Of a stretch of 64,000 nt of DNA, positions 46,420 through 63,622 are shown in pieces. Made by a program: the position numbers and the translations under genes. Below the pieces are notes generated by a model. The model had not been told where the DNA came from. It did no database searches and saw only the letters and a list, made by a program, of their open reading frames with translations. Each line of letters starts with the position of its first letter. Within the stretch, counting starts at the first letter, position 1. Origin of the DNA: Methanohalophilus euhalobius (GTDB lineage: Archaea > Halobacteriota > Methanosarcinia > Methanosarcinales > Methanosarcinaceae); the NCBI RefSeq assembly GCF_900215215.1, contig NZ_OBDR01000006.1, positions 1 through 64,000 of the forward strand, written 5' to 3'.

Positions 46420-46470
46420 AGACCCACTCCTATCAGTAAAGCTATTTCATTCAAGTTTTAATTTATCTTC

Positions 46471-48918
46471 TTAGTAATCTGTATCAATATCACCAGTCAA
46501 TTCTCCACCAAGGTATACCTTATTCAAAGCAGTTGAGAAACCAGACCAATCATTTTCAAAGTTCTTTATTTCATAGTTCTTACTAACTAATCTATCTTCG
46601 AGAATGCTGTTATTGTCTTTCTCAACTACAAAATCGCCTAAAACCATCTTAAGCTGCTCCCAATCATTGTAGAAATATTCCTGTAACAAAGGTATAACCC
46701 GATTATACCAAACAAAATACAATTTATTCTTGGCCTGCTCTTCTTCCAGTTCTACAACTTCACAAAAGTAACTATGCCCGATTTGATGATCTCTGTCTAT
46801 TAGTGCGGATAGCATACCATTTAATTCTTTCAACAATGAACCAATATTAACTCCATCAATTTCAACATCAATAATGGAATAATCAGGCATCATTTCCAGA
46901 AAAGTAAACCTTCTCCTCAAAGCAATATCCAGCAATGCAATTGAACGATCAGCAGTATTCATCGTTCCTACTATGTAGAGATTTGAAGGTACAGAAAAAT
47001 CGGTTTTTGAGTAAGGAAGTTTTATAGATATCTCATTGGATTTACCTGAACGTTTATCGTCTTCAATAAGAGTAATTAATTCTCCGAATATCTTTGCAAT
47101 ATTTCCTCTGTTGATTTCATCTATCACAAGAACATAATTATTCTCTGGGTCGTTTTTGGCCCTTTCACAGATGTCCTTGAATACACCGCTTCCTACCTTA
47201 TATGAAACATCACCTTCATATACAATCGGTTTCAAGCCTTCTATAAAGTCTTCATACCCATATGATTGGTGGAAAGTAATGAACGTACAATAATGACCAA
47301 AGTCTTTTTCCTCATAAATTTGTTTATTTCCTGTAAAAAGGTCGATTGCTTCTGATAAGTTATTTTCTACATATTCGATTCCCTCAGGTAGCAGGTACCA
47401 TTCACTACTCGAAGCCTTATCGAATAAAGTGGGAGAACTTTTGTTTTCAGTTTTTACAGTTTCACTGTTAGGATTTGAATGAGATTGTAGTTGACCCCAC
47501 AAAGTTTGTGAAAAATTCCTTTCTCTTCCCCTTATTTTTTCAAAATAAAATTTTATGATATCATGATTTTTTAAATCTGGGACCTTTACCGTTTCATTTT
47601 TGCCATTTAAATAAATCGATAAAGCAACCACTTGATACCACTTCAAATCCTGAAGTAATTCTATTTTCATCTCTTCGAATGACTTAGGTTTAGATAATTG
47701 ATCTTTAAGAAAAGATTTGGTGAATTGTTGAATGGCGTATGTCTTTCCTGTACCAGGCGGGCCATATAATATCACATTTTTAGTATGTACTAGTGTATTG
47801 TGGAGTAGGGATTTGTTTTGAGTAGTGATATTTGGAACATCGATATCCTTTAACCACCATAAAAATAAATCTACATCCATATAGGTTGCATCTTTCAAGC
47901 CATTGATCTTCAAATTTTGCAGAATATTTGACATATGTGGCTTCATTGCGATGTAGTATTCCCCTTGATCACCTTTGCTTCCATAAGGCAGAGTTCCTTT
48001 AATGTCAATATTCATTCTTGAAAAGAAATCATCGACTACAGAATTTTTAATCCAGAAATTATTAGGTTCTTTTAAACAAAGTAATTCACTTAAAAAACCA
48101 ATCCCCATATTATTGAATGATTTGAGTGCCTGATTTATATCATTTTCATTAGGCTTTGTGCTTTCCAATGAGGTTATGAGATCTACTTTGAAATTATCGA
48201 AACCACCATTATTGGCAAATATTGATTCTATATTATAACGTGCACCATAGGCAGCATCGGTATCATTTAATATTTCAAGCATCTCTTCTTCGGTAAGTGC
48301 TTCAGAATATTGATTTGTAAGTTTTTCACGTACCATCTCACTACTTTTTATGTGCTCCTTTCGATGATTTTTTAGCTCATCGGAATCCAATTGTGAAATA
48401 AAATATTTTACCAATTGTGAAATATCCATTTTGTCTCCATTCTCCAGTTGAGCAAATATATCTTTGTATTTATTATTCATTTGAATATATCCGTTCTTTA
48501 TTTCTTCCCATTTCCATTCTTCATTGACTGGAGTAATTGTTTTATTAGCAAGATTATAGGAAAGAGTAATTTGCTCATTAATGAGCCAATGAACCAATCG
48601 TGTATGGAGGTACTCAATTCCGGGATTTTCCGGATGTTGTGGCTCAAGATAATTACTTGTAATCTTTCCAATTCCTAATACGGTATTTTGACCATTGACG
48701 GCGATTACTACATCCCCTTCACTCATGTCATTATAAAAGTACCAGATTGAGTTTGCATCATTAGTGCCATGAGATTGTTTTACATCATCCAGAGACTCAT
48801 ATCCAGAATAACTTTCATCACCATCCCATCCTATTCCAATACATTTATTGTTCAAAAATTCATTCCAGAGACGACCTTTTTCCCCAGGGCGTATAAACCA
48901 TTTGTTACCCATATTCAT
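46471..48918 (-). CDS. mcrB: McrB AAA+ GTPase with N-terminal EVE-like domain
   Basis: 815 residues. The N-terminal 110 or so residues (WFIRPGEKGRLWNEFLNNKCIGIGW, then EGDVVIAVNGQNTVLGIGKI) look like an EVE/PUA-type domain, a reader of modified bases. A helical linker leads to the AAA+ motor: Walker A LYGPPGTGKTYAI (about residue 384), Walker B VLVIDEINRGNIAKIFGE and the McrB hallmark GTMNTADRSIALLD. The ATG overlaps the stop of mcrC (ATGA). With McrC it forms a type IV system that cuts modified DNA. Confidence 0.93.
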   Translation of the reverse strand: MNMGNKWFIRPGEKGRLWNEFLNNKCIGIGWDGDESYSGYESLDDVKQSHGTNDANSIWYFYNDMSEGDVVIAVNGQNTVLGIGKITSNYLEPQHPENPGIEYLHTRLVHWLINEQITLSYNLANKTITPVNEEWKWEEIKNGYIQMNNKYKDIFAQLENGDKMDISQLVKYFISQLDSDELKNHRKEHIKSSEMVREKLTNQYSEALTEEEMLEILNDTDAAYGARYNIESIFANNGGFDNFKVDLITSLESTKPNENDINQALKSFNNMGIGFLSELLCLKEPNNFWIKNSVVDDFFSRMNIDIKGTLPYGSKGDQGEYYIAMKPHMSNILQNLKINGLKDATYMDVDLFLWWLKDIDVPNITTQNKSLLHNTLVHTKNVILYGPPGTGKTYAIQQFTKSFLKDQLSKPKSFEEMKIELLQDLKWYQVVALSIYLNGKNETVKVPDLKNHDIIKFYFEKIRGRERNFSQTLWGQLQSHSNPNSETVKTENKSSPTLFDKASSSEWYLLPEGIEYVENNLSEAIDLFTGNKQIYEEKDFGHYCTFITFHQSYGYEDFIEGLKPIVYEGDVSYKVGSGVFKDICERAKNDPENNYVLVIDEINRGNIAKIFGELITLIEDDKRSGKSNEISIKLPYSKTDFSVPSNLYIVGTMNTADRSIALLDIALRRRFTFLEMMPDYSIIDVEIDGVNIGSLLKELNGMLSALIDRDHQIGHSYFCEVVELEEEQAKNKLYFVWYNRVIPLLQEYFYNDWEQLKMVLGDFVVEKDNNSILEDRLVSKNYEIKNFENDWSGFSTALNKVYLGGELTGDIDTDY

Positions 48919-50213
48919 TCCTCTTCCAATATTTTTCTAATGTCTTCGATAAGTTTCTTTTTATTAACTGGATTTGTCAAATCAATCCTTAAGTCTACAG
49001 TTGCAACCTTTATTTGTTGACCAGTCGGTTTAAGCATGTATTTTTCAATAATATGTCCATTTATTCCTGATGTACGAGGGTAAAGGAGAATGATTTTTGA
49101 GCAATCATATCTGTTAGCATAAGCGGCCATCTGATACATATCCGCCACAGAAACTCCTTTCTTTCGATCTTTCTTCCTTAATTTTTTGTACTTTGTGTCA
49201 ATAATAAGTTTTGTTATCTCTCTTTTGTTGAAAAGAATGTCTGGAATAAGCCAAAATGATTTTTCTTCTTTTGAATTTCTAGCGAGCTCCTTCCTACCCA
49301 TCTGTGAATAAAGATTGCAGTCCAGAAGATCTTCAGGAAGAATTGATCTGCGGTGTTTTTTTAGAAATCGTGCAATAAAGCGTTCAAAAAGCACATTCAT
49401 ATCAAATGTAAATGCAAAAGAACTCATGGAACCCACTGATGTCTCGACAACATTTGCATCGATAAACATTTTAGCCATATTAAATGCTGGCCGGTAATTT
49501 TCATTCAGTCTTGTGAAGATGACTTTGTTTAAGAGTGGAGTTGGGTTGGAGACATATGCGATATTTTCCATTTGATAATCAAGAATATGCAGGTTCTTTC
49601 TGTTTTCAGAATCTTGAGACTGATATTTCAATCTTCTTACAACGAATTTAAGTATCTGATTTAGTGGTATATCGGGGCTGAATTCATCATAGTTGACATA
49701 AAAATGGTGTTTTTTGAAACAATTCGAAATTATATGTTTTTGAACCATCCATTTGCCTTTAAAGTAAGGTAAATTCTCCTCTACCTCCATATACTGCTTT
49801 TGTGCTCCCTTTTTGAATACATCGATTAGATTTTTTATAAACATATAAGTTAATATCTCAAACCAGGCGGCTTTCCGAGATTGCATATGTGCGATGTCAC
49901 TTTCATAGATTGGTATGTCATAACAATAATGAAGCAAATATAGAAGATTTCGCTGAGAATTTTCTATCTTTGAGGCTCTTGTCAAACCATCACTATACAT
50001 TTTTGGTAATATCTCTATCGAAAGGTCACTTACTTGAATTAAACCAACATATTGTTTTGTATGAAGACCATTTCTTTTCAGAGTAAGGATTTCTCCATTT
50101 GATTCATTTAGTTTTTCGATGAGGTCAAGATGATGTGAGGATGGACCCTGAATAAAATCTGAATATGAGCGAGATTCATGTTCAAAAAGAGTTATAGAAG
50201 TATTTTGAGACAT
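48915..50213 (-). CDS. mcrC: McrC endonuclease subunit
   Basis: 432 residues. The N-terminal beta region VGLIQVSDLSIEILPKM is typical of McrC, and the PD-(D/E)XK site is seen as FWLIPDILFN followed by KLIIDTKYKKL near residue 325. It cleaves DNA when McrB translocates and stalls. Here it is transcribed before mcrB, the reverse of the E. coli order. Very AT-rich (14 G+C of 60 on 49681-49740). Confidence 0.92.
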   Translation of the reverse strand: MSQNTSITLFEHESRSYSDFIQGPSSHHLDLIEKLNESNGEILTLKRNGLHTKQYVGLIQVSDLSIEILPKMYSDGLTRASKIENSQRNLLYLLHYCYDIPIYESDIAHMQSRKAAWFEILTYMFIKNLIDVFKKGAQKQYMEVEENLPYFKGKWMVQKHIISNCFKKHHFYVNYDEFSPDIPLNQILKFVVRRLKYQSQDSENRKNLHILDYQMENIAYVSNPTPLLNKVIFTRLNENYRPAFNMAKMFIDANVVETSVGSMSSFAFTFDMNVLFERFIARFLKKHRRSILPEDLLDCNLYSQMGRKELARNSKEEKSFWLIPDILFNKREITKLIIDTKYKKLRKKDRKKGVSVADMYQMAAYANRYDCSKIILLYPRTSGINGHIIEKYMLKPTGQQIKVATVDLRIDLTNPVNKKKLIEDIRKILEEE

Positions 50214-50243
50214 GTTTTAAAACCAATGTACATTTAATATATA

Positions 50244-53200
50244 TTATTTATGCATATGAATTTTTCTTCCTTGATGGTTGTACCACTCACAAATCCCCTT
50301 ATATTCACAGAAATAACAGTTCGGCTCTTCCTTGATCTCAAAGTCCTCGGCCTTGATATCCGCTACGATCTCCCTGACACCATCAAGTACAGAATTGATC
50401 TGTGCTTCGTCCACATCCATTAACCTGAGGTCACGGATCTTCGGATTGACATACATCAGCCCTGCTTTGATAGGATATTTTCCATACCTCTCTCTGACAG
50501 CCTGGCAGTACAGGGCAAGTTGTACATCTTCTGGCATTTTATTCTTGCTCAATGGACTTTTGCTGGTCTTGTAATCAATAACAATATATTCGCCCGCAGG
50601 GGTTTGGTCGATTCGGTCAATTACTCCTCCAAACTGTGCTCCATCCAGTTTGAGATTGAACTTATCCTCCACAGCAATCGTTTCATTGACATTGCTTTCC
50701 TCAAACTCAAACCAGTATTCCAGCATCTGCCTGACTCTTTCAAGTTCCTGCTGCTCGTGGGTCTCTGAATCGAAAACAGAACCATCCCAGGTTTTATCCA
50801 GGATACGAGTGGCAAGTTCCATATCAATGGACTCGCCCTGCATCTTGTGCCTGCAAAGCTGTTCAAACACAGAATGCACATCGGTTCCAGTCTGGAAGAA
50901 TGTCTTTTGAGGAATCGGTATATTCAGTACATTGCTATACTTGAATTTCAGAGGACACTCCATGTATTGCCTGATCTTGGACGCTGAAAAGCGCATATCA
51001 GAATCTACAAGAGGTGGTAAATCTTCATTCACCAGTGCCTCCAATTCTCCCATCTCTTTGGGTGTGATCTTCAGAAAATCCTCAATATCAAAAACAGCCA
51101 GGTTGCCTTTATCCTCTATCTCTTTTAACTGAGTCAGCACCACCAGTGACTCCAGTGCCTGCTTCATCTGACCCTGGCCGGCATACATGTTCAAAAGCCT
51201 GAGATATTCATCCTGTTTTCCTTTCAATGGCGATTCTGTGGTAACAGTCTCCGTATCCTGCAATTTGTCAGTTTCAATGTATTCAATCAGGGGATTGGAT
51301 TCACAATCTAACTGGGTGACAAACTCACTGGGCTTGACACCTCGTTTGTTGCCTGCATATTTTTCAGGAAATGTGAGATACAGTTTTTCCCTGGACCGGG
51401 TCATGGCTACATAGGCCAGCCTGCGTTCTTCCTCCAGATGCAGGACTTTATCCTCCACATCCCTCTGAACACCTTTCTCAAGTTCCCCGGGAACACGGAA
51501 TTGCTTTTTGGTGAATCTCAGAGGCAGATGGCGATCAGCCATATCACAGACAAAAACAACCTTTGCTTCCTTACCCTTTGACTGGTGGATTGTCATAACC
51601 TTAACAGTATTTTCCTCACTGGTTTCCTCATCCCCGATATCCAGATTGAAAACAAGTTCCAGATATTCAACAGCCCTGGCAAATTCAGAACCCCCGTCCA
51701 CAAGTTCCAAATCTTCTACCATACTGGTCAGGGAGTTGAGGATATGAATATTCCTTCTGGAAGCCACGGTATCTGCAAGCAACTGGGCCCTGTATAGGTC
51801 GGTTTTCTCGGATAACAGATACTTCACAGTATCAGAGGGTAGGTGATTCTTTCTGTAATCGATAAGTTCATTAAGCCTGGTAAGGATGGACTTGACAAGT
51901 GCCTTTTGAATTACCGGCACATCATCCAGATGGTGTTGCAGCACAGAATAGATTCCGTCCCCTTCCAGTTCCGTTTCCCGGCTGAGTTTTTTTGCCACGG
52001 TATTGATCTTCTGGAGGTCATGTTCACTTACTCCTTCCCTTGCAAACACTCTGGCAAAAGCAATTCCACTGTTGAAGGGATCAGCAACAATATGCATGTA
52101 GGCCAGGGCTTCCTGTACAATGGGATAATTCTTAAGCTGCAGATTGCCCACATATTCCACAGGGATCATTTTGCCTTTCAATGCATCACTGTACTTTTTC
52201 CCATCAGCACGTTTTCTGGTAAGTACAAAGATCTCTTCAGGAGCAATATCCTCTTCTTCAATCAGCCGCTGAATCTCGTCTGCAACCCACCTGGCCTCAC
52301 TGGAATCATCCGGGGATTTTACTACCTTTATTTTCTCTCCATCCCCATTATGGGAATGCAGAGTCTTAGCTTCCCTTTCCGGGTTTGTTGCTATCAATTG
52401 CTGGGATAATTGTACTATCTGTGAGCTGGACCTGTAATTGCGGTCCAGAGGTATTTTTTCAAGGGATGCATAGTAATCCTGCAGCTGTTTGATATTGGAA
52501 AGATAGGCACCCCTGAATCGGTAGATGCACTGGTCATCATCAGCAACACAGGTAAGATTTGTGCCATCAGCAATTAGATTGATAAGAAAAAGCTGGGCAT
52601 AATTTGTATCCTGGAATTCATCTACCAGGACGTAATCATATCTGTTGCGAATCTGATTTCGAACAACGTCATTGTTTTCCAGCAGGCGACATGTCATTGT
52701 GATCATGTCATCGTAATCCATGAAATTATGGTCCCGTTTGTACTGCTGGTAATGTGAATAGAATCTGGCAAGGTCGGCAAGTTTGAGCAGTTCATCCCTT
52801 TCTTCTTCATCAACTATTTCGTCCAGCTTTCGCGTGACAAAATCCAGCAATTCCTGCGGACCTACCAGATGGTCATGTAACTGAGACACACCCTCCAGCA
52901 GGCTTGTGATGAGATCATAGGGTCTGTTGGGAATCGCAATATTCTCAAAACCAAAGGAGTCGATATTGTTTATTCCCCAGACATGGGAATGTTCCTGTGA
53001 TATCAGTCTGGTACCCTGGTTGATGCCAGCATACAGGGAGAACTCCCTGAGCAAATCATTGCAGTAGGAATGAAAGGTGGATACCGTAATTCCGCTGGAT
53101 TCACCAATGCGGTTTTCAATTCTCTCCTCCATCTCACCTGCGGCCTTTTCAGAGAAGGTAAGGGCAAGTATCCGGTCAGGAGAAAATCCTTCATCCACAA

Positions 53201-53324
53201 GGTTTACGACCTTTTCCGTAATGGTCAGGGTTTTGCCAGAACCAGGACCTGCTAGTATTAGAAGTGGTCCGTCTGTATAATCAACTGCCTGTGATTGTGA
53301 AGGATTGAGTTTGATATCTCCCAC
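50244..53324 (-). CDS. UvrD/RecB-like helicase-nuclease with Fe-S-type PD-(D/E)XK domain
   Basis: 1,026 residues. Helicase part: LNPSQSQAVDYTDGP, Walker A AGPGSGKT (about residue 27), DEFQDTNYAQLF, CVADDDQCIYRFRGA, VMTIHQSKG and ERRLAYVAMTRS. C-terminal nuclease: SASKIRQYMECPLKFKY (from about 778), VIDYKTSKS (about 911) and the cysteines CYFCEYKGIC (about 1005), which with CP of the first motif fit an AddB-like [4Fe-4S] cluster. GTG at 53324 with GGGGT upstream. Base composition is higher than mcrBC (24 of 60 on 51541-51600). May be a DNA-repair enzyme or a defence nuclease. Confidence 0.9.
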   Translation of the reverse strand: MGDIKLNPSQSQAVDYTDGPLLILAGPGSGKTLTITEKVVNLVDEGFSPDRILALTFSEKAAGEMEERIENRIGESSGITVSTFHSYCNDLLREFSLYAGINQGTRLISQEHSHVWGINNIDSFGFENIAIPNRPYDLITSLLEGVSQLHDHLVGPQELLDFVTRKLDEIVDEEERDELLKLADLARFYSHYQQYKRDHNFMDYDDMITMTCRLLENNDVVRNQIRNRYDYVLVDEFQDTNYAQLFLINLIADGTNLTCVADDDQCIYRFRGAYLSNIKQLQDYYASLEKIPLDRNYRSSSQIVQLSQQLIATNPEREAKTLHSHNGDGEKIKVVKSPDDSSEARWVADEIQRLIEEEDIAPEEIFVLTRKRADGKKYSDALKGKMIPVEYVGNLQLKNYPIVQEALAYMHIVADPFNSGIAFARVFAREGVSEHDLQKINTVAKKLSRETELEGDGIYSVLQHHLDDVPVIQKALVKSILTRLNELIDYRKNHLPSDTVKYLLSEKTDLYRAQLLADTVASRRNIHILNSLTSMVEDLELVDGGSEFARAVEYLELVFNLDIGDEETSEENTVKVMTIHQSKGKEAKVVFVCDMADRHLPLRFTKKQFRVPGELEKGVQRDVEDKVLHLEEERRLAYVAMTRSREKLYLTFPEKYAGNKRGVKPSEFVTQLDCESNPLIEYIETDKLQDTETVTTESPLKGKQDEYLRLLNMYAGQGQMKQALESLVVLTQLKEIEDKGNLAVFDIEDFLKITPKEMGELEALVNEDLPPLVDSDMRFSASKIRQYMECPLKFKYSNVLNIPIPQKTFFQTGTDVHSVFEQLCRHKMQGESIDMELATRILDKTWDGSVFDSETHEQQELERVRQMLEYWFEFEESNVNETIAVEDKFNLKLDGAQFGGVIDRIDQTPAGEYIVIDYKTSKSPLSKNKMPEDVQLALYCQAVRERYGKYPIKAGLMYVNPKIRDLRLMDVDEAQINSVLDGVREIVADIKAEDFEIKEEPNCYFCEYKGICEWYNHQGRKIHMHK

Positions 53325-53616: not shown

Positions 53617-55160
53617 GTTACCATTCCCTATTTTCTCGGGAGCTACTTTCAACTACAACACAGAAAAGAAAGATTTTGAGATTGAGTAGTTACCATTCCC
53701 TATTTTCTCGGGAGCTACTTTCAACACGACGAAATAGTAGCTAGGGTAGAGTACAATGACAAGTTACCATTCCCTTTTATCACGGGTGCTTATGTCAACG
53801 AAATTGTTGCGACTCTTGCAGATGTTGGCCTGTCCTCTGCGTTACCATTCCCTTTTATCACGGGTGCTTATGTCAACTCAATATTCATCTCAAATATTGC
53901 GCAGGTGAACTGGGTTACCATTCCCTTTTATCACGGGTGCTTATGTCAACCCACGTGGAATTTTCCTGGACACAGGCCGAAAACAGAACAAAGTTACCAT
54001 TCCCTTTTATCACGGGTGCTTATGTCAACGGAATATTTCGATCTCCCTACAGGAGCAGAATTGATTTATGTTACCATTCCCTTTTATCACGGGTGCTTAT
54101 GTCAACAATATATATAGTTTGTGCCAACAATGAGAAAAATCAAATGTTACCATTCCCTTTTATCACGGGTGCTTATGTCAACGGGATCTCCACTATCCCT
54201 GGGCTCGCAGGACCCAAAGTTACCATTCCCTTTTATCACGGGTGCTTATGTCAACAGATGAGTCTACATTGGTTGTTACTAAGGAGTTGTGTTACCATTC
54301 CCTTTTATCACGGGTGCTTATGTCAACGAAATTGATGATATGATAATTCGCAAACAAGCAAATGGTTACCATTCCCTTTTATCACGGGTGCTTATGTCAA
54401 CCAAAAGCCAATGCCGAAAGGCCACCTGAAACACACAGGGTTACCATTCCCTTTTATCACGGGTGCTTATGTCAACAAGTCGTCATGCAGGAAATACAAA
54501 CAGAAAATGAAGGCAAGTTACCATTCCCTTTTATCACGGGTGCTTATGTCAACTGATGTAGCAAACAGGTTTTATCAATATGACAAACGTACAGTTACCA
54601 TTCCCTTTTATCACGGGTGCTTATGTCAACTGATTCAATCGGACATTATACAGCTAGAGGATGAGATTAAGTTACCATTCCCTTTTATCACGGGTGCTTA
54701 TGTCAACAATGTCCAAAAAGACAGACTGACTGTCCACGAATTGCTATCTAGTTACCATTCCCTTTTATCACGGGTGCTTATGTCAACATAAAAGTGTACC
54801 ACAATCGGTACACTCAATACATGCTGTTACCATTCCCTTTTATCACGGGTGCTTATGTCAACATAATAAATGACGGTAAATTCGTGACATATGGGTTTGC
54901 GTTACCATTCCCTTTTATCACGGGTGCTTATGTCAACTTCGCCCGCCCGGATTGGGATGACATATACTATAGTAAGTTACCATTCCCTTTTATCACGGGT
55001 GCTTATGTCAACACGTGGTGACGGGCTTGATCTGACAGGTGCATCTGGGTTACCATTCCCTTTTATCACGGGTGCTTATGTCAACTCAAGCATACCGCCT
55101 TGGAGTATGTCATCATCTATTTTGTTACCATTCCCTTTTATCACGGGTGCTTATGTCAAC
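53617..55160 (-). CRISPR. CRISPR array: 21 repeats, 20 spacers, two repeat families
   Basis: Repeats are 37 bp, spacers 35-43 bp. Nineteen repeats from 53763 on are identical (start GTTACCATTCCCTTTTATC, end GCTTATGTCAAC). The first two, at 53617-53653 and 53689-53725, are identical to each other but differ from the rest at seven positions (14, 17, 20, 25, 29, 30, 32). I infer transcription on the minus strand because the leader-like region and cas genes lie on the right, the odd repeats lie at the far end, and the last 13 bases on that strand (AGGGAATGGTAAC) are shared, giving the 5' handle ATGGTAAC. No duplicated spacer seen by eye. Confidence 0.98.
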
Positions 55161-55223
55161 CCTATGTTTTTTTCCTTTAAATCCTTTTTGGAGACCTTAG
55201 AATACTTCTTTTTGAGGGGGTAG

Positions 55224-55268
55224 TGTACAGACCTCAATTTGCCAGTACCCTTTAAAAAGGTCTGTACA
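55224..55268. promoter_or_regulatory. 45-bp palindromic element, copy 1 (leader side)
   Basis: TGTACAGACCT (55224-55234) and its perfect complement AGGTCTGTACA (55258-55268) enclose 23 bp containing CCCTTTAAAA, a TATA-like core. On the minus strand this core would place transcription start about 25-30 bp further left, close to the first repeat at 55160. So it may be the array promoter with a built-in operator (inference). Confidence 0.75.
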
Positions 55269-55287
55269 ATCGATAGCAGGAGGCGTC

Positions 55288-55449
55288 GTGAAAATTAACG
55301 CTGTTAACATCAGTAAAACACTATCTGCAGGCTTCATAATAAAAAGATTGATAAATATTCAATGTCTGTTTAAGGTTAAATTAAACCCACAATTGCCTGA
55401 AAATGATAATCTGTGTGTACAGACCTCCTTTTGGCTCAACCCCTTATAA
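55288..55449 (+). CDS. Possible 53-residue ORF between the two palindromes
   Basis: GTG at 55288 is preceded by a perfect AGGAGG (55278-55283). The frame runs to TAA at 55447-55449, inside palindrome copy 2, giving a product beginning MKINAVNISKTLSAGFIIKR. No family recognised. The strong ribosome site is the main support. It could be a small regulator of the locus, a leader peptide or chance. Confidence 0.3.
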   Translation: MKINAVNISKTLSAGFIIKRLINIQCLFKVKLNPQLPENDNLCVQTSFWLNPL

Positions 55450-55460
55450 AGGTCTTTACA
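55416..55460. promoter_or_regulatory. 45-bp palindromic element, copy 2 (cas side)
   Basis: TGTACAGACCT (55416-55426) and AGGTCTTTACA (55450-55460), one mismatch from perfect symmetry, again with 23 bp between and a CCCCTTATAA core. Total length equals copy 1 and, by my alignment, 36 of 45 bases agree. The copies are 192 bp apart. Their equal layout means they are related by descent or function rather than chance. Confidence 0.75.
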
Positions 55461-55575
55461 CATAGTTCATTAATCGAATTAAATCTATGACGTATTCATG
55501 ATTTAAAATCATATAGGTGCGTTTATTGCATTAATTCATGTAGAAATAACTCCCTGTACAGAATAAATACAATAA

Positions 55576-55586
55576 GTTTATATGAA
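55576..55586 (+). promoter_or_regulatory. TATA box of the cas operon
   Basis: GTTTATATGAA lies about 30 bp before the cas6 ATG (55612), so the transcript would begin within a few bases of the start codon, as in leaderless archaeal messages. No ribosome site is seen for cas6, which agrees. Confidence 0.6.
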
Positions 55587-55611
55587 TCCTCTTCTTATTA
55601 TTTAGAGTGTC

Positions 55612-56406
55612 ATGATAACCACGGTTGTACAGGTGGATATATCCACTAATCAAAACGTCAAGAAGAAGTTCATAGGCAGTGTATTCAGAGGCTGGCTTGG
55701 CTATAACCTGAAATGTGACACGAATAAAAAATGTGAAGGTTGCAAGGATACAGAGAAATGTCCTTATTTTATGGTGTTCAAAGAAAAAACAGGTGTCAGG
55801 CCATATTCAATTCTTGCTTTTGCAGATAAACAGAAAATCAGGGGAATAATACGTCTCTATGGCGATAAAAAGAAATTTGCGCCTAAGATACTCTCCTATA
55901 TCAAAAAGAATGAAAATAATACTCATTTTGGTGGACAAAAATACAAAATCGATTCCATAAAAGCCTACAACCAGAATATCAAACCGATTAATACAAAAGA
56001 TAGGGTCAGAATAGCCACTGTTTCACCTCTCCATCTCACAAGTAATCAGGATATGGAGATTATACCGTCCTTTAATACTATTCTCAGGTCTAGCATTCGT
56101 GCTTACAACCGTATTGCAAAATATCACGATACGGACAACTATCCATTTCATGTCGGAGAAGATATAACTGAATCAGATGCCGAGATTGTCGATTTTGATA
56201 TAAACACTGTGGAATATTCCCATGTAAACATAAATAACAAAAAAATGTTTTTCAGCGGGGTTGAAGGCTGGGTGGAATACGACACATCCGCTTTACCATC
56301 TGAAATAGGCACGATCCTGGGAATGGGTGAAGCCTTGCAGATTGGAAAACATACTACCTATGGCTTTGGAGGATTCATGGTGACAAATAAGGAGGATACA
56401 GATTGA
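55612..56406 (+). CDS. cas6: Cas6 pre-crRNA endoribonuclease
   Basis: 264 residues with a RAMP-type C-terminal glycine-rich loop GMGEALQIGKHTTYGFGGF, the hallmark of Cas6. A cysteine cluster near the N-terminus (CDTNKKCEGC, EKCPYF) suggests a bound zinc. Cas6 cuts the repeat RNA to release crRNAs with an 8-nt 5' handle. It opens the operon and its end overlaps cas10 by four bases. Confidence 0.88.
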   Translation: MITTVVQVDISTNQNVKKKFIGSVFRGWLGYNLKCDTNKKCEGCKDTEKCPYFMVFKEKTGVRPYSILAFADKQKIRGIIRLYGDKKKFAPKILSYIKKNENNTHFGGQKYKIDSIKAYNQNIKPINTKDRVRIATVSPLHLTSNQDMEIIPSFNTILRSSIRAYNRIAKYHDTDNYPFHVGEDITESDAEIVDFDINTVEYSHVNINNKKMFFSGVEGWVEYDTSALPSEIGTILGMGEALQIGKHTTYGFGGFMVTNKEDTD

Positions 56407-58745
56407 ATCAGAAGAATCAGAATATTGGGGTTAGTGATTGGTTCACTAAAAAAATAAAGGAAGATATTGATTATCCAGAACAGAGTAACAAAACACTGGA
56501 TGTCTTCATTAACGATATCATAGGGATCCTGGACAATTCAAAAAAATTGAGTGATGCTGCAGACGATATCTATGACAAACTTGAAAAATCAGAATTCATC
56601 AACAATATATGTTCTGATTCTCGTTTCCCTATATGTTCCCTTTTCCATCACATGAAAAACACATCGGCTGTTGCAACATGCATTTTGTTTCAAAATATTG
56701 CAAAAGATAAGTCATATTTGGAGAAATGTCTGAAAGAATACGATATAAAGGCTGATTATGCAGAAAAGGATCTTGTTTCTCTTTTAAGGATTGCTGCACT
56801 GTTACATGATATTGGAAAACCGCGCTCATCAAGTAAAAAGGTAAGGTATGGACCATATTATCATCATACCACTCAAACAAGAGAAATTCTGGAACACATA
56901 CTTGAAAATACCAGTTCTAATCTTGTTGAAAAATATGAATTGAATAAAATCGTTCCAAAACTTGCAGCACAGCATCATTCAAGAGATACCTCCACAAAAC
57001 TGGAACGATTGCTCAGCAAAGCAGATACAGTGGCTTCAGCTGCAGACAGGATCAATGAAATTGACAGTAATCTGGAAAACGGAAATCTTCATCTTGAAAG
57101 CAAGGATAAAATATTTCCTCATGAGATCAACTGTGATGCAGGGGGTATGAAATGTCTGGAAAAGAATCATACCACTGTACTGGGTAATGGAAGCACAATT
57201 GATTGCAAGGTTGAAATCAAAGACCCAACAGCAAACTCTGCTCAACTGTTCTATGATTCTGTATGCTATGGAGGGCCTGTAAAATATCTCGGGAAAACAT
57301 ATCCTATATCGGGCAACATCGGTATTCTTTCTCTTGATGTAATGGGCATTCAAGGGTTCATAGGTGAAGCAGATAAACTCAATATGTTGAGGGGTGGAAG
57401 TTACTTTGTAGACAAAGTTCTTGAAGCAGCAAAAGACGTAATTGCACATAAAGTATGCCCTGAAGCAGTCCTTTTCTGGGGAGGAGGCAATCTTCTCTCA
57501 TTCATTCCAGCAACTGAAATGTATAGAAAAGAATTAAAGGAAACTATAGAAAATAAGGTAAAAGATATATCAAACGACGGATTGCAGGTTGCGGTAATTA
57601 CCTTTGAAGAAGAACTTGCAAACGTTGCGGGGCAGTTCAATGATACTCTGGAAAAATCGCAGAATGAACTTGAAACCAGGAAGAATGAGACAAGATCCAG
57701 ACAGCCCATAAAGAATACGAAAAAGACATGTCGGTATTGTGCCAAAAGACCTGAAGCATCAAGTGGTGGTTCTTGCAAGGTATGCAAGGAGAAAGAAGAA
57801 AAAGGCAAATTGGCGAAGTGTCGTCTTTTCAACAAATATATCAAGAATACTCATGATTGTTCCATACCCACAGAGCTTTCTCATCTTGGTGAATCGATCG
57901 GTGCACTGGTAATCGATGGTAACATGATGGGGAGATTATTCCAGCAGACAAGTACACCTGCAGAGTATACCTATAAGAGTCACACCTTCAAGACCAAATT
58001 CGACAAAATACTGGAAGATTCAATAACCACTTTTCTTGATCAAGAAGAGAATCTCAACCTGGTAAAGCATCGAAAAGAAGGTATTGACTATCTTGGAATC
58101 GATGTACTCTATGCGGGTGGAGATGACGTACTTATTCTCATGAATGCAAAAGCTGTAATCCAGTTTGCAAGTCATTTGATTGAAAATGTATCTGAAGAGT
58201 TCATGTTTAAAAAGAAATTCTATGATACCACTACATTTGAGAATCCTACCGTAACCATATCCTGTGGAATTGCAATTGCAGATAACAGTTTTCCTATCTA
58301 TTTCCTGCTGGATGCAGCAAGAGAAATGGAATCCAGTGCCAAGAAAGAATTCAGGCAGAATACCAGCACAGATGATTACAACATAATCAAAATTCCAAAA
58401 GGTGCCATGTCAGTCACAGCTGTAAATTCTGCTATGCCTGAAAAAGACCATATTTCATTTGTTTTCCCTCATGATCTCAAAGATCTTGAACAGTTAAGCA
58501 GGATATTTGATATTGCTTTCTATCGGGAAAAATCTCGAACCCTCATTTCAGACCTGGTTACATGCGGTAATTCAAAACATGAATATTTGAACCTGATAAA
58601 ATACATGTATTCATCTGTGCAGCGCAAAAGTGATAGCATAAATATTGATGATTGTGAATGGATGGCCGATACATTATGTAATGACAATCTGCTTTCGGCA
58701 TCCCGTATGATCATACCTCATCTGTTACATGGGGAGGGGGAATAA
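56403..58745 (+). CDS. cas10: Cas10 (HD nuclease + GGDD cyclase) of a type III system
   Basis: 780 residues. An HD domain has LLHDIGKPRSSS at residues 134-145 (His135-Asp136) and a preceding SLFHHMKNT. A zinc finger follows (CRYC 443-446, CKVC 458-461), then the palm domain with YAGGDDVLIL, GGDD at 572-575. Both activities, ssDNA cleavage and cyclic oligoadenylate synthesis, look intact. TTG start with AAGGAGG just upstream. Large subunit of the effector complex. Confidence 0.95.
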   Translation: MNQKNQNIGVSDWFTKKIKEDIDYPEQSNKTLDVFINDIIGILDNSKKLSDAADDIYDKLEKSEFINNICSDSRFPICSLFHHMKNTSAVATCILFQNIAKDKSYLEKCLKEYDIKADYAEKDLVSLLRIAALLHDIGKPRSSSKKVRYGPYYHHTTQTREILEHILENTSSNLVEKYELNKIVPKLAAQHHSRDTSTKLERLLSKADTVASAADRINEIDSNLENGNLHLESKDKIFPHEINCDAGGMKCLEKNHTTVLGNGSTIDCKVEIKDPTANSAQLFYDSVCYGGPVKYLGKTYPISGNIGILSLDVMGIQGFIGEADKLNMLRGGSYFVDKVLEAAKDVIAHKVCPEAVLFWGGGNLLSFIPATEMYRKELKETIENKVKDISNDGLQVAVITFEEELANVAGQFNDTLEKSQNELETRKNETRSRQPIKNTKKTCRYCAKRPEASSGGSCKVCKEKEEKGKLAKCRLFNKYIKNTHDCSIPTELSHLGESIGALVIDGNMMGRLFQQTSTPAEYTYKSHTFKTKFDKILEDSITTFLDQEENLNLVKHRKEGIDYLGIDVLYAGGDDVLILMNAKAVIQFASHLIENVSEEFMFKKKFYDTTTFENPTVTISCGIAIADNSFPIYFLLDAAREMESSAKKEFRQNTSTDDYNIIKIPKGAMSVTAVNSAMPEKDHISFVFPHDLKDLEQLSRIFDIAFYREKSRTLISDLVTCGNSKHEYLNLIKYMYSSVQRKSDSINIDDCEWMADTLCNDNLLSASRMIIPHLLHGEGE

Positions 58746-58746
58746 A

Positions 58747-59400
58747 ATGAATATTTGGAAAGTATCACTCAAAGCCACCAGTGATTTCCATACAGCAGGA
58801 AAATCCAGCGGTTCAACGATTGACTATCTGAAAAACAGTGAAGATATGCCATACATACCTGCCACTCATATCAAAGGGGTTATGCGAACAGAGGCAGAAC
58901 GGATAATACGCACTTTAAAAGATGTTAATTGCTGGGTTACGGGTGACCCAGATCAAAAGGAAGTATCTGAAGAAAATAAGCGCAAAATTCGAAGCTGTAG
59001 GGATTTATCTGATGAAACGTGTGATGTCTGCAGGATATTTGGCACTCCCAATGACGATAATAAGTACACGGAAGGTAAAATTCGAGTAACTGATTTTGTC
59101 TATACGGAAGGGAATAAGAGTACATCTGCAAGGATGCATGTATCTATAGATAGAGATATGCTTTCGAATACAGGTGGTGGATTATATCGAACTTTTGCAG
59201 TACCATCAGGCACTGTTTTTTCAGGATATTTCATAATCCGAAACTTAAGTGATGACGATAATAAATTGCTATGGGGTGCCCTGCATTCAATGTGTCATTA
59301 TGGTCTTGGTGGTGAACGGTCACGTGGAATGGGTAGTTTTGAAGTTGCTGGAATTAAAGAGATCAAATATGAGCAATTTTGCACAGAGGTAGATTTATAA
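58747..59400 (+). CDS. Csm3-like RAMP protein (Cas7 family)
   Basis: 217 residues. DFHTAGKSSGSTIDYL, then PYIPATHIKGVMRTEAERII and CDVCRIFGTPND are classic Cas7/Csm3 patterns; the C-terminal glycine-rich loop is GLGGERSRGMGSF. It likely coats the crRNA; a catalytic Asp in the DFHTAG region could cut target RNA. ATG at 58747 is chosen for the strong GGGGAGGGGG before it. Confidence 0.9.
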   Translation: MNIWKVSLKATSDFHTAGKSSGSTIDYLKNSEDMPYIPATHIKGVMRTEAERIIRTLKDVNCWVTGDPDQKEVSEENKRKIRSCRDLSDETCDVCRIFGTPNDDNKYTEGKIRVTDFVYTEGNKSTSARMHVSIDRDMLSNTGGGLYRTFAVPSGTVFSGYFIIRNLSDDDNKLLWGALHSMCHYGLGGERSRGMGSFEVAGIKEIKYEQFCTEVDL

Positions 59401-60488
59401 TGAAAGTTTTAACGGCAACACTGAAAAACCTGGCACCTCTGCATATTGGAACAGGAAAAAAGACTGGAAATTTTTCAAAAACCCTTGAGTATATTCCAGG
59501 CCGAACAATACGGGGAATGGTGGGGTATTACCTATACAATAATAACAAATCTCTATTCAACGCCCTTCGCATCAATGAAGATGAGGATATGAGTCAAACT
59601 GGAGTATTCTTCAAAAACGCTCTGCCGATTAATAAAGGTAAGTCCACACGAGCCTGTCCTGTATCATTTAAGTGGTGCAAAAAATGTGGTCATATGATTG
59701 AACCTGACAAAAAAGAGTGTACCAATACAGTGGAAGACAGACCGTGTTTGCATGAAGGGAAAAAATATGGAGGCTTTATTACTGCTGATTCGTTTGAAAC
59801 AGGGGAACTTGAAAGCGTCTCGGTGAATACACAGATTTCTACAAAATGTCCGATTACACGAGATGGTAATACAAGTCCTGGACCATATGATGACATTGCT
59901 CCCTATAACATAGAGAGTATTGTAGAGGGTACAGAATTCGAATTCCAGTGTATTGTTGAAGATGAATATGTAGATGGTTTGAAAGAAGCATTGAATGAAT
60001 CTGGTATATTTGGGGGACTGGGTGGTTTCCGCTCCCGTGGATATGGAACTGTGACATTTTCCAATTTCAATGCAACTCCTGCATCTGATATGATTCAGGA
60101 AAAAGCCAGTAATATCTCGCAATTCAAGAATGCAATGATGGTTACTAATTCTCCAATGATTCTCAGGGATGGTGAAACTTCCATTATAGGCTTTGATGAG
60201 AATTTCGAACAATATGTTTCTAAAAGTTGTGACATTTGCGCCACTCAGGGAAATTTCAAAATTGTGAGTGGAGATAAGGGTTCACAGAAACTCAATGAAG
60301 GTATTGCACGTGGCTGGTCCATTAAGGAAGGTAACAAGGTTTCCGAGATCATTCCCTGTATTGGAATGGGTAGCTGCGCAGTGGTTGAAGGAGACCCTGA
60401 AGTCATGGCAACTCTGGAAGTCTATGGAATCGGGGAGATGATCAACAGTGGATATGGTGACGTGTATTTCATGGAGGGCCATCTATGA
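59400..60488 (+). CDS. Csx10-like RAMP protein (Cas5 family, type III-D)
   Basis: 362 residues. Starts with TLKNLAPLHIGTGKKTGNFS and EYIPGRTIRGMVGYYLY, carries a zinc insertion (CKKCGHMIEPDKKEC) and a GLGGFRSRGYGTVTFS loop, and has a second RAMP-like half to the end. These traits fit Csx10, the Cas5 of type III-D, which caps the crRNA 5' handle. ATG at 59400 overlaps the previous stop (TAATG). Confidence 0.8.
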   Translation: MKVLTATLKNLAPLHIGTGKKTGNFSKTLEYIPGRTIRGMVGYYLYNNNKSLFNALRINEDEDMSQTGVFFKNALPINKGKSTRACPVSFKWCKKCGHMIEPDKKECTNTVEDRPCLHEGKKYGGFITADSFETGELESVSVNTQISTKCPITRDGNTSPGPYDDIAPYNIESIVEGTEFEFQCIVEDEYVDGLKEALNESGIFGGLGGFRSRGYGTVTFSNFNATPASDMIQEKASNISQFKNAMMVTNSPMILRDGETSIIGFDENFEQYVSKSCDICATQGNFKIVSGDKGSQKLNEGIARGWSIKEGNKVSEIIPCIGMGSCAVVEGDPEVMATLEVYGIGEMINSGYGDVYFMEGHL

Positions 60489-60985
60489 GCAGCAATTTGA
60501 TCGAAATCAATCAATATGCCTGGGAACTGGCAACACTGGCCATGTGGAAAGCTGGAAAAGAACTTAAAGCGTATTCTACTGACCAGATTCGCAGAATTGT
60601 AGCAGCTGGGAACTCAGGCAACATTAACGATATCAAGAATATTATAGATCAATATTCACCTGCTCCCCCTCAGGGGAAGAAAGAGTACCAGGCTCAGGGT
60701 GAAATCCGCGCAAAACGCCAGAAAAATAAGGACTTTGGGAATAATTTGATTCAAGTTATATCTGAAAGAGATGTAGAAGATATACAGCGTTTGTTACAAT
60801 ATGTATTATGGAATATAAAAATTCTTGAATATGCTTACAAGAAATCTGAAGATAAATTTATAGATGAAATTGCTCTGGAGCTTGATTGTGAATATGTAAA
60901 TAAAGAAAAGATTACGGGTAATTTAAAGCAATTCATAGATGATAACAGAAGGAAAGGTAATTCCAGGGATAAAAGGAGGAGATAA
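60485..60985 (+). CDS. Small helical protein of the type III operon (possible Cas11)
   Basis: 166 residues, nearly all helix, with a strongly basic tail (NRRKGNSRDKRRR). Begins NLIEINQYAWELATLAMWKAGKELK. Size, charge and place between Cas5- and Cas7-like genes suggest the Csm2/Cas11 small subunit, but I see no diagnostic motif. Overlaps the previous stop by four bases. Family not recognised. Confidence 0.7.
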   Translation: MSSNLIEINQYAWELATLAMWKAGKELKAYSTDQIRRIVAAGNSGNINDIKNIIDQYSPAPPQGKKEYQAQGEIRAKRQKNKDFGNNLIQVISERDVEDIQRLLQYVLWNIKILEYAYKKSEDKFIDEIALELDCEYVNKEKITGNLKQFIDDNRRKGNSRDKRRR

Positions 60986-60987
60986 TT

Positions 60988-61503
60988 ATGACTGTTGAGT
61001 TCAATAGAGATGAGTTGGGGAGTATAGTTCTGGATTCGTATGAACTTATGCTGGAAATTCCATCTCCCAATAAAAAAGGAGATAAATACGAAATTCCTTC
61101 CAGGGGCAAACTGAAAAATCTTCCTGAAGCACTGCGGGAGTTTGAAGATCCACAATCTGCAATATTACATTTCACAAAAAGTGCATCTTATTTTTTACCA
61201 CGTTCTGATGCTAAATTGAGTGACTATTTGCAAATGTTGCTCTCCAAAGTCCAAAAGATACAAAGGGAAGAATCTGATCCTGAAAAAATCAGGGAAAGAA
61301 TACGTTATCTTATAGGATACAGTAACTGGAGTATGGATGCGGTTTGTAATATATTCGGGATGTCTGCCAGTGATCAGCAAGTGCGTGAGAGGGTTCACAC
61401 CATGGTCAATGCCGAACTTGGCCTTATTGACAGAGAAAAAGATGTTGACATAATCGTTGACAAAATTATGAAATGGAAATCAAACAATCCCAGGGGAAGA
61501 TAA
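60988..61503 (+). CDS. Unrecognised small protein of the type III operon
   Basis: 171 residues, helical, starting MTVEFNRDELGSIVLDSYEL and with an amphipathic middle (YLQMLLSKVQKIQREE). No RAMP glycine loop, zinc site or catalytic motif. AAAGGAGGAG before the ATG shows it is translated. Could be a second small subunit or a subtype-specific factor in the place where csx19 stands in some III-D loci. I cannot identify it. Confidence 0.7.
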   Translation: MTVEFNRDELGSIVLDSYELMLEIPSPNKKGDKYEIPSRGKLKNLPEALREFEDPQSAILHFTKSASYFLPRSDAKLSDYLQMLLSKVQKIQREESDPEKIRERIRYLIGYSNWSMDAVCNIFGMSASDQQVRERVHTMVNAELGLIDREKDVDIIVDKIMKWKSNNPRGR

Positions 61504-61505
61504 TT

Positions 61506-62270
61506 ATGTTCAGAAAACTGGTGGACAGAGCAATTTTGCAGTATAAGGTCACTACGAAATCCGATTTACATATCGGGGGTCACACTACTGTTGAACCTGC
61601 AGAGGTTGACAATCCTGTAATCAAAAATACGGAAGGTTATCCAATCATACCAGGTAGCAGTCTGAAAGGTGTAATGCGAACCGAAGTGGAGCGATTGCTT
61701 AAAGGACTGGATATTAAAGTGTGTGATGTATTTGATAATGAAAGTTATGGAGGCTGTAATGAGTGTCCAGTTTGCTACCTTTTCGGAGGCAAAGATTTGG
61801 CATCATCGATACGCATTAAAGATGCAGTTGCCGATAATAAAAAGACATTGATCAGAGATAGTGTAGCCATTGACCGCCAGACAAGGAAAGCCCGTGATGG
61901 TGGCAAATATGATATAGAGGCAGTTCCCAGGGGTACAATATTCAAGGGAACAATAACAATAGAAAACACAGGAATTGAATCGGATGGTTATCTCTATGAC
62001 CATGCAAAACTTGGTGGATTACTCGGTCTGATCGATTTTTTCAATGCATGCAGTGGAAACATAGGTCATGCTGTGTCCCGAGGATTTGGGGAAGTGGAAA
62101 TTGAAATCGAAAAACTCAATCTGATTACAGCACAGGATTATCTTGACGGCAAATATGAAGGAAGCGAATATTCTCCACAGACTGATGAATATCAGGATTT
62201 AAAATCAAATGCTGCTGCTGACTGGTCCAAATATGTAAAAGAAGATAAGCATGTCTGTCAAGAGGGATGA
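61506..62270 (+). CDS. Csm3-like RAMP protein (second copy)
   Basis: 254 residues. TKSDLHIGGHTTVEP (with the Asp often used for target-RNA cutting), YPIIPGSSLKGVMRTEVERL, CPVCYLFGG and the loop GNIGHAVSRGFGEVEIE are standard for Cas7-type Csm3. More complete than the copy at 58747. ATG at 61506 preferred; overlaps the next frame by a few bases. Confidence 0.9.
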   Translation: MFRKLVDRAILQYKVTTKSDLHIGGHTTVEPAEVDNPVIKNTEGYPIIPGSSLKGVMRTEVERLLKGLDIKVCDVFDNESYGGCNECPVCYLFGGKDLASSIRIKDAVADNKKTLIRDSVAIDRQTRKARDGGKYDIEAVPRGTIFKGTITIENTGIESDGYLYDHAKLGGLLGLIDFFNACSGNIGHAVSRGFGEVEIEIEKLNLITAQDYLDGKYEGSEYSPQTDEYQDLKSNAAADWSKYVKEDKHVCQEG

Positions 62271-62272
62271 TA

Positions 62273-63622
62273 GTGACCGATTATAGCATCTTTCAAAATC
62301 GATGGCAAATAACTGCCAGGTTAACACTGGTTACACCTCTGCGTATCGGTGGTGGACAGAATGCAGGTGCATATTCTCTCTCACAGAGTCCAGTACTCTT
62401 ATCCTATGATGCCCAGACAAAAAAACCCGACCCGTATATACCAGGCAGCAGCCTTAAAGGTGTATTGAGAAGTACGGTTGAAAGAATAATACGTACTTTC
62501 AATGAAAACAAATCCTGCATTGCTGTAAGTAATAAAAGAGATAACAATTTGCTTTGTGGAAAAGAGGATTGTATTCCCTGCTCAATATTTGGATCACAGA
62601 AAGAAGGTGCCAGTATTAGGGTACAGGATGCACATCTTTCCGATGAACTAAATCAGAACCTTGCTCTGGGAGAACGTCCACACTGTGCAACCCGCTATAA
62701 AAAAAGGGGACACGAATATGTGATGCAAACCAGAAAGAAAGGCAACGGACAAGTACCAAATGCAAATCCTCGCTTTGAAGAAATTGTAACAGCAAACAAT
62801 TCGTTTGATGTCACTATTAATCTTGATAATGCAAACGAGCAGGAAGTTGGTTTTGTATTACTTGCCCTGAATGAATTCAACCATAAGAGATGCTGTCTTG
62901 GAGGAGGGACATCTAGAGGAAACGGGTTTGTAGATGTAAATCGGGTTAGGGTTGCAAAAAAGAGTGTTGACAATGATGATGATGCCTTGTTTCAGGTGAA
63001 GACAGAACAAATGGACCCTATTATGTTCTGTAATGCAGCAAAGAAGTACCTGAAAAATATAGATAACGGTGAGGATACATGTCGTAGAGATTTCGATGTA
63101 TACTATCGTGCTTATTCTACCGATAAATTGGAAGGCAATGTGGTTGTTCCTTATGAGATTATTACAACGAAGGATTTCCAGATGCCAGGGGCAGATGAGG
63201 CTACCGTAACCAATCAAGGGGTACCAATAATACCAGGTTCAACCATCAAGGGTTACCTTCGACATACATTGATTTCTAAAGGTGAAGATGCAGATACTAT
63301 AGACGAGTTGTTTGGTGCCTCTGTGGGTAATAACCAACATCGTTCAAGGATTTTAATCTCCGATGCATTTCCACTAGAACAATTTGCCTCTAGCGATATG
63401 ATTCCTGCAAATACAAGACTGAAACTCTGGATGGTTTTTGATAATATTGAAAGGCACGAAGTTGAACTTATTAGCAACATCCTGAAAAAAGAATGTACAA
63501 TTACAGGAAAAAGTGTTGCCGATCCCAACAAAACAGGAAAATCTTCACGCAATGTTGTGAGATTTCATCCAGTATTACCAGAAAAATTTGAGGCAAACAA
63601 GTTCCTGGAATTAATGGTATAA
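62273..63622 (+). CDS. Double-RAMP (Cas7-Cas7 fusion) protein
   Basis: 449 residues holding two RAMP units. The first has LTLVTPLRIGGGQNAGAY, PYIPGSSLKGVLRSTVERII, CIPCSIFGS and GGGTSRGNGFVDV (to about residue 225). The second, weaker in cysteines, has VPIIPGSTIKGYLRHTLISKG and DELFGASVG (about 260-450). Two Cas7 copies in one chain would set a fixed number and order of backbone subunits. GTG at 62273 has GAGGG upstream; ATG at 62267 is possible. Confidence 0.85.
   Translation: MTDYSIFQNRWQITARLTLVTPLRIGGGQNAGAYSLSQSPVLLSYDAQTKKPDPYIPGSSLKGVLRSTVERIIRTFNENKSCIAVSNKRDNNLLCGKEDCIPCSIFGSQKEGASIRVQDAHLSDELNQNLALGERPHCATRYKKRGHEYVMQTRKKGNGQVPNANPRFEEIVTANNSFDVTINLDNANEQEVGFVLLALNEFNHKRCCLGGGTSRGNGFVDVNRVRVAKKSVDNDDDALFQVKTEQMDPIMFCNAAKKYLKNIDNGEDTCRRDFDVYYRAYSTDKLEGNVVVPYEIITTKDFQMPGADEATVTNQGVPIIPGSTIKGYLRHTLISKGEDADTIDELFGASVGNNQHRSRILISDAFPLEQFASSDMIPANTRLKLWMVFDNIERHEVELISNILKKECTITGKSVADPNKTGKSSRNVVRFHPVLPEKFEANKFLELMV

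Follow-up and report, generated by a model that had tools for sequence, protein, structure and literature searches.

The leader of a type III CRISPR array in Methanohalophilus euhalobius contains two 45-bp dyads, each spanning a TATA-like core, and each is probably a control site that gates transcription of the array. We conclude this because the dyads are real, enclose the probable promoter of the array, and recur in the same design before arrays in many related archaea. The reading that we favour, with a probability of roughly 0.6, is of each 45-bp element as the core promoter of a CRISPR array with a system-specific dyad operator around it, gating pre-crRNA transcription. Little is known of how CRISPR arrays are switched on in archaea, and work on their leaders has dealt mostly with spacer integration.

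Two TATA-spanning dyads in the leader of a type III array

The window, by which we mean the whole 64,000-nucleotide stretch analysed, carries the array, its leader and much of the adjoining cas operon:

53617..55160, minus strand: CRISPR array A, built of repeat GTTGACATAAGCACCCGTGATAAAAGGGAATGGTAAC and with its leader end at 55160; the two most distal repeats are of another type
55161..55460, minus strand: left-array leader, made up of a conserved repeat-proximal block containing TTTAAAGGAAAAAAACATAGG, then P1, a linker and P2; homologous to the right-array leader
55224..55268, minus strand: P1, inner TATA-spanning dyad, arms matching at 11/11 positions, start 108 bp before the first repeat
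55251..55258, minus strand: TATA box of P1, TTTTTAAA, called from sequence
55416..55460, minus strand: P2, outer TATA-spanning dyad, arms matching at 10/11 positions, start 300 bp before the first repeat
55612..56406, plus strand: cas6, preceded by a TATA-like TTTATATG of its own (55577) and an isolated TGTACAGA (55555)
56403..63622, plus strand: type III effector genes (cas10, Csm3/Csx7-like Cas7s, Csx10-like Cas5, Csm2-like small subunits)

P1 and P2 each consist of 11-bp arms around a 23-bp centre, with starts 192 bp apart, just as an earlier note on this DNA had described them. On the forward strand P1 reads TGTACAGACCT-CAATTTGCCAGTACCCTTTAAAA-AGGTCTGTACA and P2 reads TGTACAGACCT-CCTTTTGGCTCAACCCCTTATAA-AGGTCTTTACA, with the single mismatch in the right arm; on the minus strand, the direction of the array, they read TGTACAGACC-TTTTTAAA-GGGTACTGGCAAATTG-AGGTCTGTACA and TGTAAAGACC-TTTATAAG-GGGTTGAGCCAAAAGG-AGGTCTGTACA, respectively. 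Inverted repeats of the 11/23/11 form with at most one mismatch occur three times in the 64-kb window, and P1 and P2 are two of the three. A single such dyad could be chance, but four copies in two leaders, together with conservation across genera, place these dyads beyond it. The search of this genome that the earlier note had proposed found the dyad pattern (≤3 mismatches) at four places, all within the two CRISPR leaders of the type III locus, and a reversed control pattern gave no match genome-wide. The symmetric site around a TATA core is thus borne out; it is tied to CRISPR arrays and lacks genome-wide scatter, which fits an operator.

The cas operon, which further encodes a CARF protein, a PIN protein (matching CARF-PIN models), a CARF-HEPN protein (Csm6/Csx1-like), cas1, and cas2, lies between two arrays whose leaders both face inward. 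The right-array leader (C13:67940-68240, just beyond the window) is homologous to the left one and has both dyads, the outer of which begins directly after the cas2 stop codon, without an adjoining cas promoter. The dyads are therefore leader parts, located at the array leader end and common to both arrays of the locus, and not a divergent promoter common to cas6. The earlier note had put them in leader and promoter space shared by array and operon; they do lie in the intergenic interval 55161-55611, but they belong to the array leader.

Conservation among homologous leaders

The leader and repeat junction is matched in G036 (two leaders), G037, G044, G055, G067, and G069, and homologous leaders (family A) are present in seven genomes spanning three genera: Methanohalophilus, Methanolobus, and Methanomethylovorans. 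The junction has no match among viral contigs. All nine homologous leaders have the 11-23-11 arrangement, with the TATA box, TTTATAAA or a sequence very close to it, at element positions 11-18. The distance from the start of the inner element to the first repeat is 108-109 bp in all nine; for the outer copy, in the leaders that have one, it is 267-309 bp, and the G067 leader has a single dyad copy. Arm sequences vary by species (TGTACAGACCT, TGTGCAGACCT, ACTGGAGATCT, TGGGAACATCT, and others) with symmetry kept, although imperfectly in some. Apart from small changes, the repeat-proximal TTTAAAGGAAAAAAACATAGG (55161-55184) is also retained in all family A leaders, and may serve as an additional TATA-like site or as a block where Cas1 docks.

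The same design before other CRISPR families

We searched 112 genomes of the family with a first covariance model of the element, and 238 genomes of the class and 393 of the phylum with a second model built from more diverse elements. Class-wide there were 68 matches at E≤0.05, a threshold that is rough since the E-values come from a short calibration, and a count that is inflated by closely related genomes; by our tally 63 of the 68 are in CRISPR leaders. With arrays called by a simple repeated-word script, 62 of these 63 are followed, within ~240 bp, by an array or relic repeats oriented as expected; the remaining one (G111) was recognised solely by the leader-end motif TTTAAAGGA at a contig end. 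Three matches at contig ends are left unassigned (G069:C128, G004:C20, and G112), and two lie outside leaders (G114 and G162). In this genome, all five matches at E≤0.05 are within CRISPR leaders.

The half-sites before different repeat families are of several unrelated types. Family B, with GTTAAAATCAGACCTTAGAGGGATTGAAAC-type repeats, has the half-site TTCGTGGATCT and an element 173-202 bp before the repeat; its representative in this genome (C17:3152-3196) lies just after cas2, in the leader of an array linked to cas4-cas1-cas2. Family C, with GTTGAAAAACAGCTTCCAGC-type repeats, has the half-site RCCGCTGATCT and an element at -119/-120, and in G165 the half-site is CAGGTGAGTCT and the element is at -108. 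Outside the class, three arrays of G543 are each preceded by a tandem pair, with elements at -210 and -108 in two cases and at -220 and -119 in the third; these arrays surround a Cmr-type operon that includes Cas6, and a reverse transcriptase gene and cas1 lie alongside. Elements are also found at -108 in G436 and G527 and, by hand count, at -107 in G319. The G543 reverse transcriptase gene is of the group II intron type and adjoins cas1 (L238:13970-16459). Because training of the models drew on some of these families, the independent cases are G165 and the phylum matches with new half-sites.

The related genomes thus show the same 11-23-11 design before CRISPR arrays across Halobacteriota, and the feature is not special to type III, since it precedes several other repeat families. 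The earlier note knew of no described type III leader with this layout, and our literature search yielded no description of this dyad, in a field where much subscription literature was outside reach and an earlier description is possible.

Covariation of the arms

In family A, 8 of the 11 arm pairs have changed on both sides. Across 18 elements from several families, 42 cells had both sides changed, where shuffles gave 13.0 ± 2.8, and the signal is lost when the arm partner is slid by one base. When left arms are paired with right arms taken from other elements, the match falls (permutation p ~3.5e-5, an approximate value since the sequences are related). G-U pairs account for 3 of 37 non-Watson-Crick cells, no excess over random mismatches. 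The arms therefore change together with symmetry kept, and covariation far above shuffles without G-U enrichment fits a DNA dyad and not an RNA hairpin.

Conservation is unevenly distributed within the element. Of the 78 cells that the outer six arm positions give in 13 representatives of distinct leaders, 71 match (permuted mean 33); the inner five positions are a near-constant GAYCT, and element positions 11-16 (TTTATA) are constant, P1 having TTTTTA; the TATA box thus keeps a fixed position, as in an archaeal promoter. One half-site is constant within family B, and likewise one within family C, across genera. A constant inner arm, a variable but matched outer arm, and a constant half-site in families B and C would fit family-specific protein recognition, and covariation of the half-sites implies that each CRISPR family has a specificity partner evolving in step with it.

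A model for gating of the array promoter

In nearly all elements the TATA box is on the array-distal side, as expected of a promoter directed towards the array. If archaeal transcription starts lie ~22-30 nt past the TATA box, the predicted P1 start would be in or next to the array-side arm (55224-55234), so that the array-proximal arm would cover the expected start, with a short A-rich stretch ~10-13 bp before it; a TATA-to-start distance of 22 nt is documented in one archaeal case (PMC3124441). The array-distal arm, with the TATA box immediately on its inner side, would therefore cover the BRE position. We infer that a symmetric, CRISPR-family-specific DNA-binding factor on both arms gates pre-crRNA transcription. 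Such a factor would obstruct or remodel the promoter; on the simplest reading it would act as a repressor that denies access to TBP/TFB and RNA polymerase. The two tandem copies would be two gated promoters, at -108 and -300. Counting against a promoter with its operator are G251 and G269, where the dyad, placed between cas2 and the array, has its TATA box array-proximal, opposite to the others (L240:2587-2631 and L242:2322-2366), and the single copy in G067.

A broader proposal, which we advance tentatively, is that these elements form a class of CRISPR-array promoters across Halobacteriota, each a 45-bp dyad with hypervariable, co-varying, family-specific half-sites that encloses a TATA box lying almost always equally far from the repeat; their reader may be a factor of the own system, possibly the adaptation complex, such that transcription and spacer integration would be mutually exclusive. 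The dyad makes directly testable whether crRNA transcription and adaptation are on one switch, and it is a ready pull-down bait for the missing regulator. As a portable mark of CRISPR leaders in many members of the phylum, the 11-23-11 dyad around a TATA box also allows the promoter and orientation of an array to be called.

Comparison with known leader elements

The closest known system is CAPPa, the CRISPR-associated promoter palindrome of Sulfolobales, which like the dyad is restricted to CRISPR leaders and cas promoters, near the TATA box and conserved order-wide (PMC8699464). Unlike the dyad, CAPPa is a short TCCCN8GGGA of one sequence, 12 bp upstream of BRE/TATA, and is a proposed Csa3a site (PMC8699464); the dyad is 45 bp long, spans the TATA box, has half-sites that vary by CRISPR family, and is kept where Csa3 is undetected. 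Our element does not belong to CAPPa: its arms are TGTACAGACCT around a 23-bp centre, the TATA box is between the arms, and no protein of this genome matches TIGR01884 above the cut-off.

In leaders with the ATTCGCGAGC repeat, which we take to be of the Methanosarcina mazei type, the region from about -107 to -63 holds a TATA element whose arms match weakly. The M. mazei protein MM_0565, a CARF-wHTH dimer, binds the leader from -108 to -38 and not from -70 to -1, and that study saw no direct effect on CRISPR-Cas transcription (PMC7465815). That leader belongs to the same archaeal family, and its -108 to -38 fragment should contain the TATA element; binding there was localised to the fragment level, and the available portion of the study describes no palindrome (PMC7465815). 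In Sulfolobus, Csa3a and Cas1 bind distal and proximal leader motifs, of which the distal one matters for adaptation (PMC9456107). The Sulfolobus islandicus leader resembles ours in being two-part, with a distal Csa3a motif (-143 to -94) and a repeat-proximal Cas1 motif, but has no described TATA-spanning dyad and comes from a distant archaeal lineage (PMC9456107).

Alternative explanations

The earlier note had offered RNA hairpins and a tiny MITE duplicated in place as other readings. A hairpin acting as terminator, stabiliser, or processing signal in read-through RNA is compatible with complementary arms and with the position of several elements directly or closely after the cas2 stop, but we consider it very unlikely: G-U pairs are no commoner than random, which does not favour pairing at the RNA level, the TATA sequence of the loop hardly varies, and with the predicted start in the array-side arm, RNA started within the element would be without its 5′ arm. 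There are two similar copies, as for a MITE, but the genome has no other copy within 3 mismatches outside the CRISPR leaders, which excludes a MITE for practical purposes, and the spacing is fixed in diverged genomes. The note's main proposal, a single operator set controlling array and effector operon together, is improbable. Array and operon do share an intergenic space, and there are 8-mers upstream of cas6 that we regard as suggestive: TGTACAGA at 55555-55562, identical to part of the arms and 22 bp before the cas6 TATA-like site, and in G055 GACACATG, part of its own arm, before cas6. Against joint control, such lone half-sites are weak and were found post hoc, a full dyad upstream of cas6 is absent in G055 and G069 (with no obvious half-site there in G069), cas6 has its own TATA-like site, and the second dyad pair is at the other side of the operon, after cas2.

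Two further alternatives concern the protein that may occupy the arms. The sites could be docking sites for adaptation, with Cas1-Cas2 (with or without an accessory factor) on both arms at a fixed distance from the junction, and overlap with the promoter coupling or excluding transcription during integration. The inner start is 107-109 bp before the repeat in family A, G543, G436, G527, G165, and G319, half-sites vary between CRISPR families, the operons read have cas1 and cas6 in common and no HTH gene, and the Sulfolobus leader offers a precedent in its distal and proximal motifs (PMC9456107). We nevertheless think docking rather unlikely, since the TATA box is the most conserved part, family B elements are found anywhere from -173 to -202 and those of family C at -119/-120, and the outer copy is another 100-200 bp out. 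Alternatively, the dyad could be the operator of a Csa3-like CARF-wHTH regulator, as CAPPa is in Sulfolobales. MM_0565 binds the leader part expected to hold the element (PMC7465815), and Csa3 is within ~8-14 kb of some family C arrays in G006 and G081. However, no Csa3 scores above the TIGR01884 cut-off, which a strongly diverged relative could escape, in this genome (G000), G036, G069, G088, G096, G074, or G098, all of which keep dyads; the Csa3 regions read have no half-site, and CAPPa is a different motif placed upstream of the TATA box (PMC8699464). We thus reject Csa3 as a universal binder and doubt strongly that a Csa3-like regulator reads the dyad; its absence above the cut-off in this and several other dyad-keeping genomes makes another factor likely here.

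For the gated promoter that we prefer, the operon itself offered no regulator: Pfam, NCBIfam, and PADLOC searches found no HTH gene in it, the ORFs beside the C17 array being searched in part. A half-site-like match near an HTH gene on C15 is inside coding sequence, and we attribute it to chance. We also rejected self-targeting spacers as regulators, as no spacer matches the leader beyond 12 nt.

Other features of the locus

The two oldest (leader-distal) repeats of array A (53617-53725) are exactly the repeat GTTGAAAGTAGCTCCCGAGAAAATAGGGAATGGTAAC of the sister genome G036, and the remainder begin GTTGACATAAGC, so that a switch of repeat type is visible within one array. Compared with the flanking genes, the cas operon between the inward-facing leaders (C13:53600-69200) is inverted in G036 C17 (L082, L083), as if recombination between inverted leaders or arrays had flipped it. 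Within the operon, a 342-aa protein (L004:1626-3151) matches only the later part of CARF-PIN models and the preceding 166-aa protein matches the CARF part, and the two may form a split CARF-PIN pair. To the left of array A (45061-53324), translations read by eye resemble a restriction endonuclease, McrB and McrC, and a UvrD-like helicase, and these genes are perhaps a defence island.
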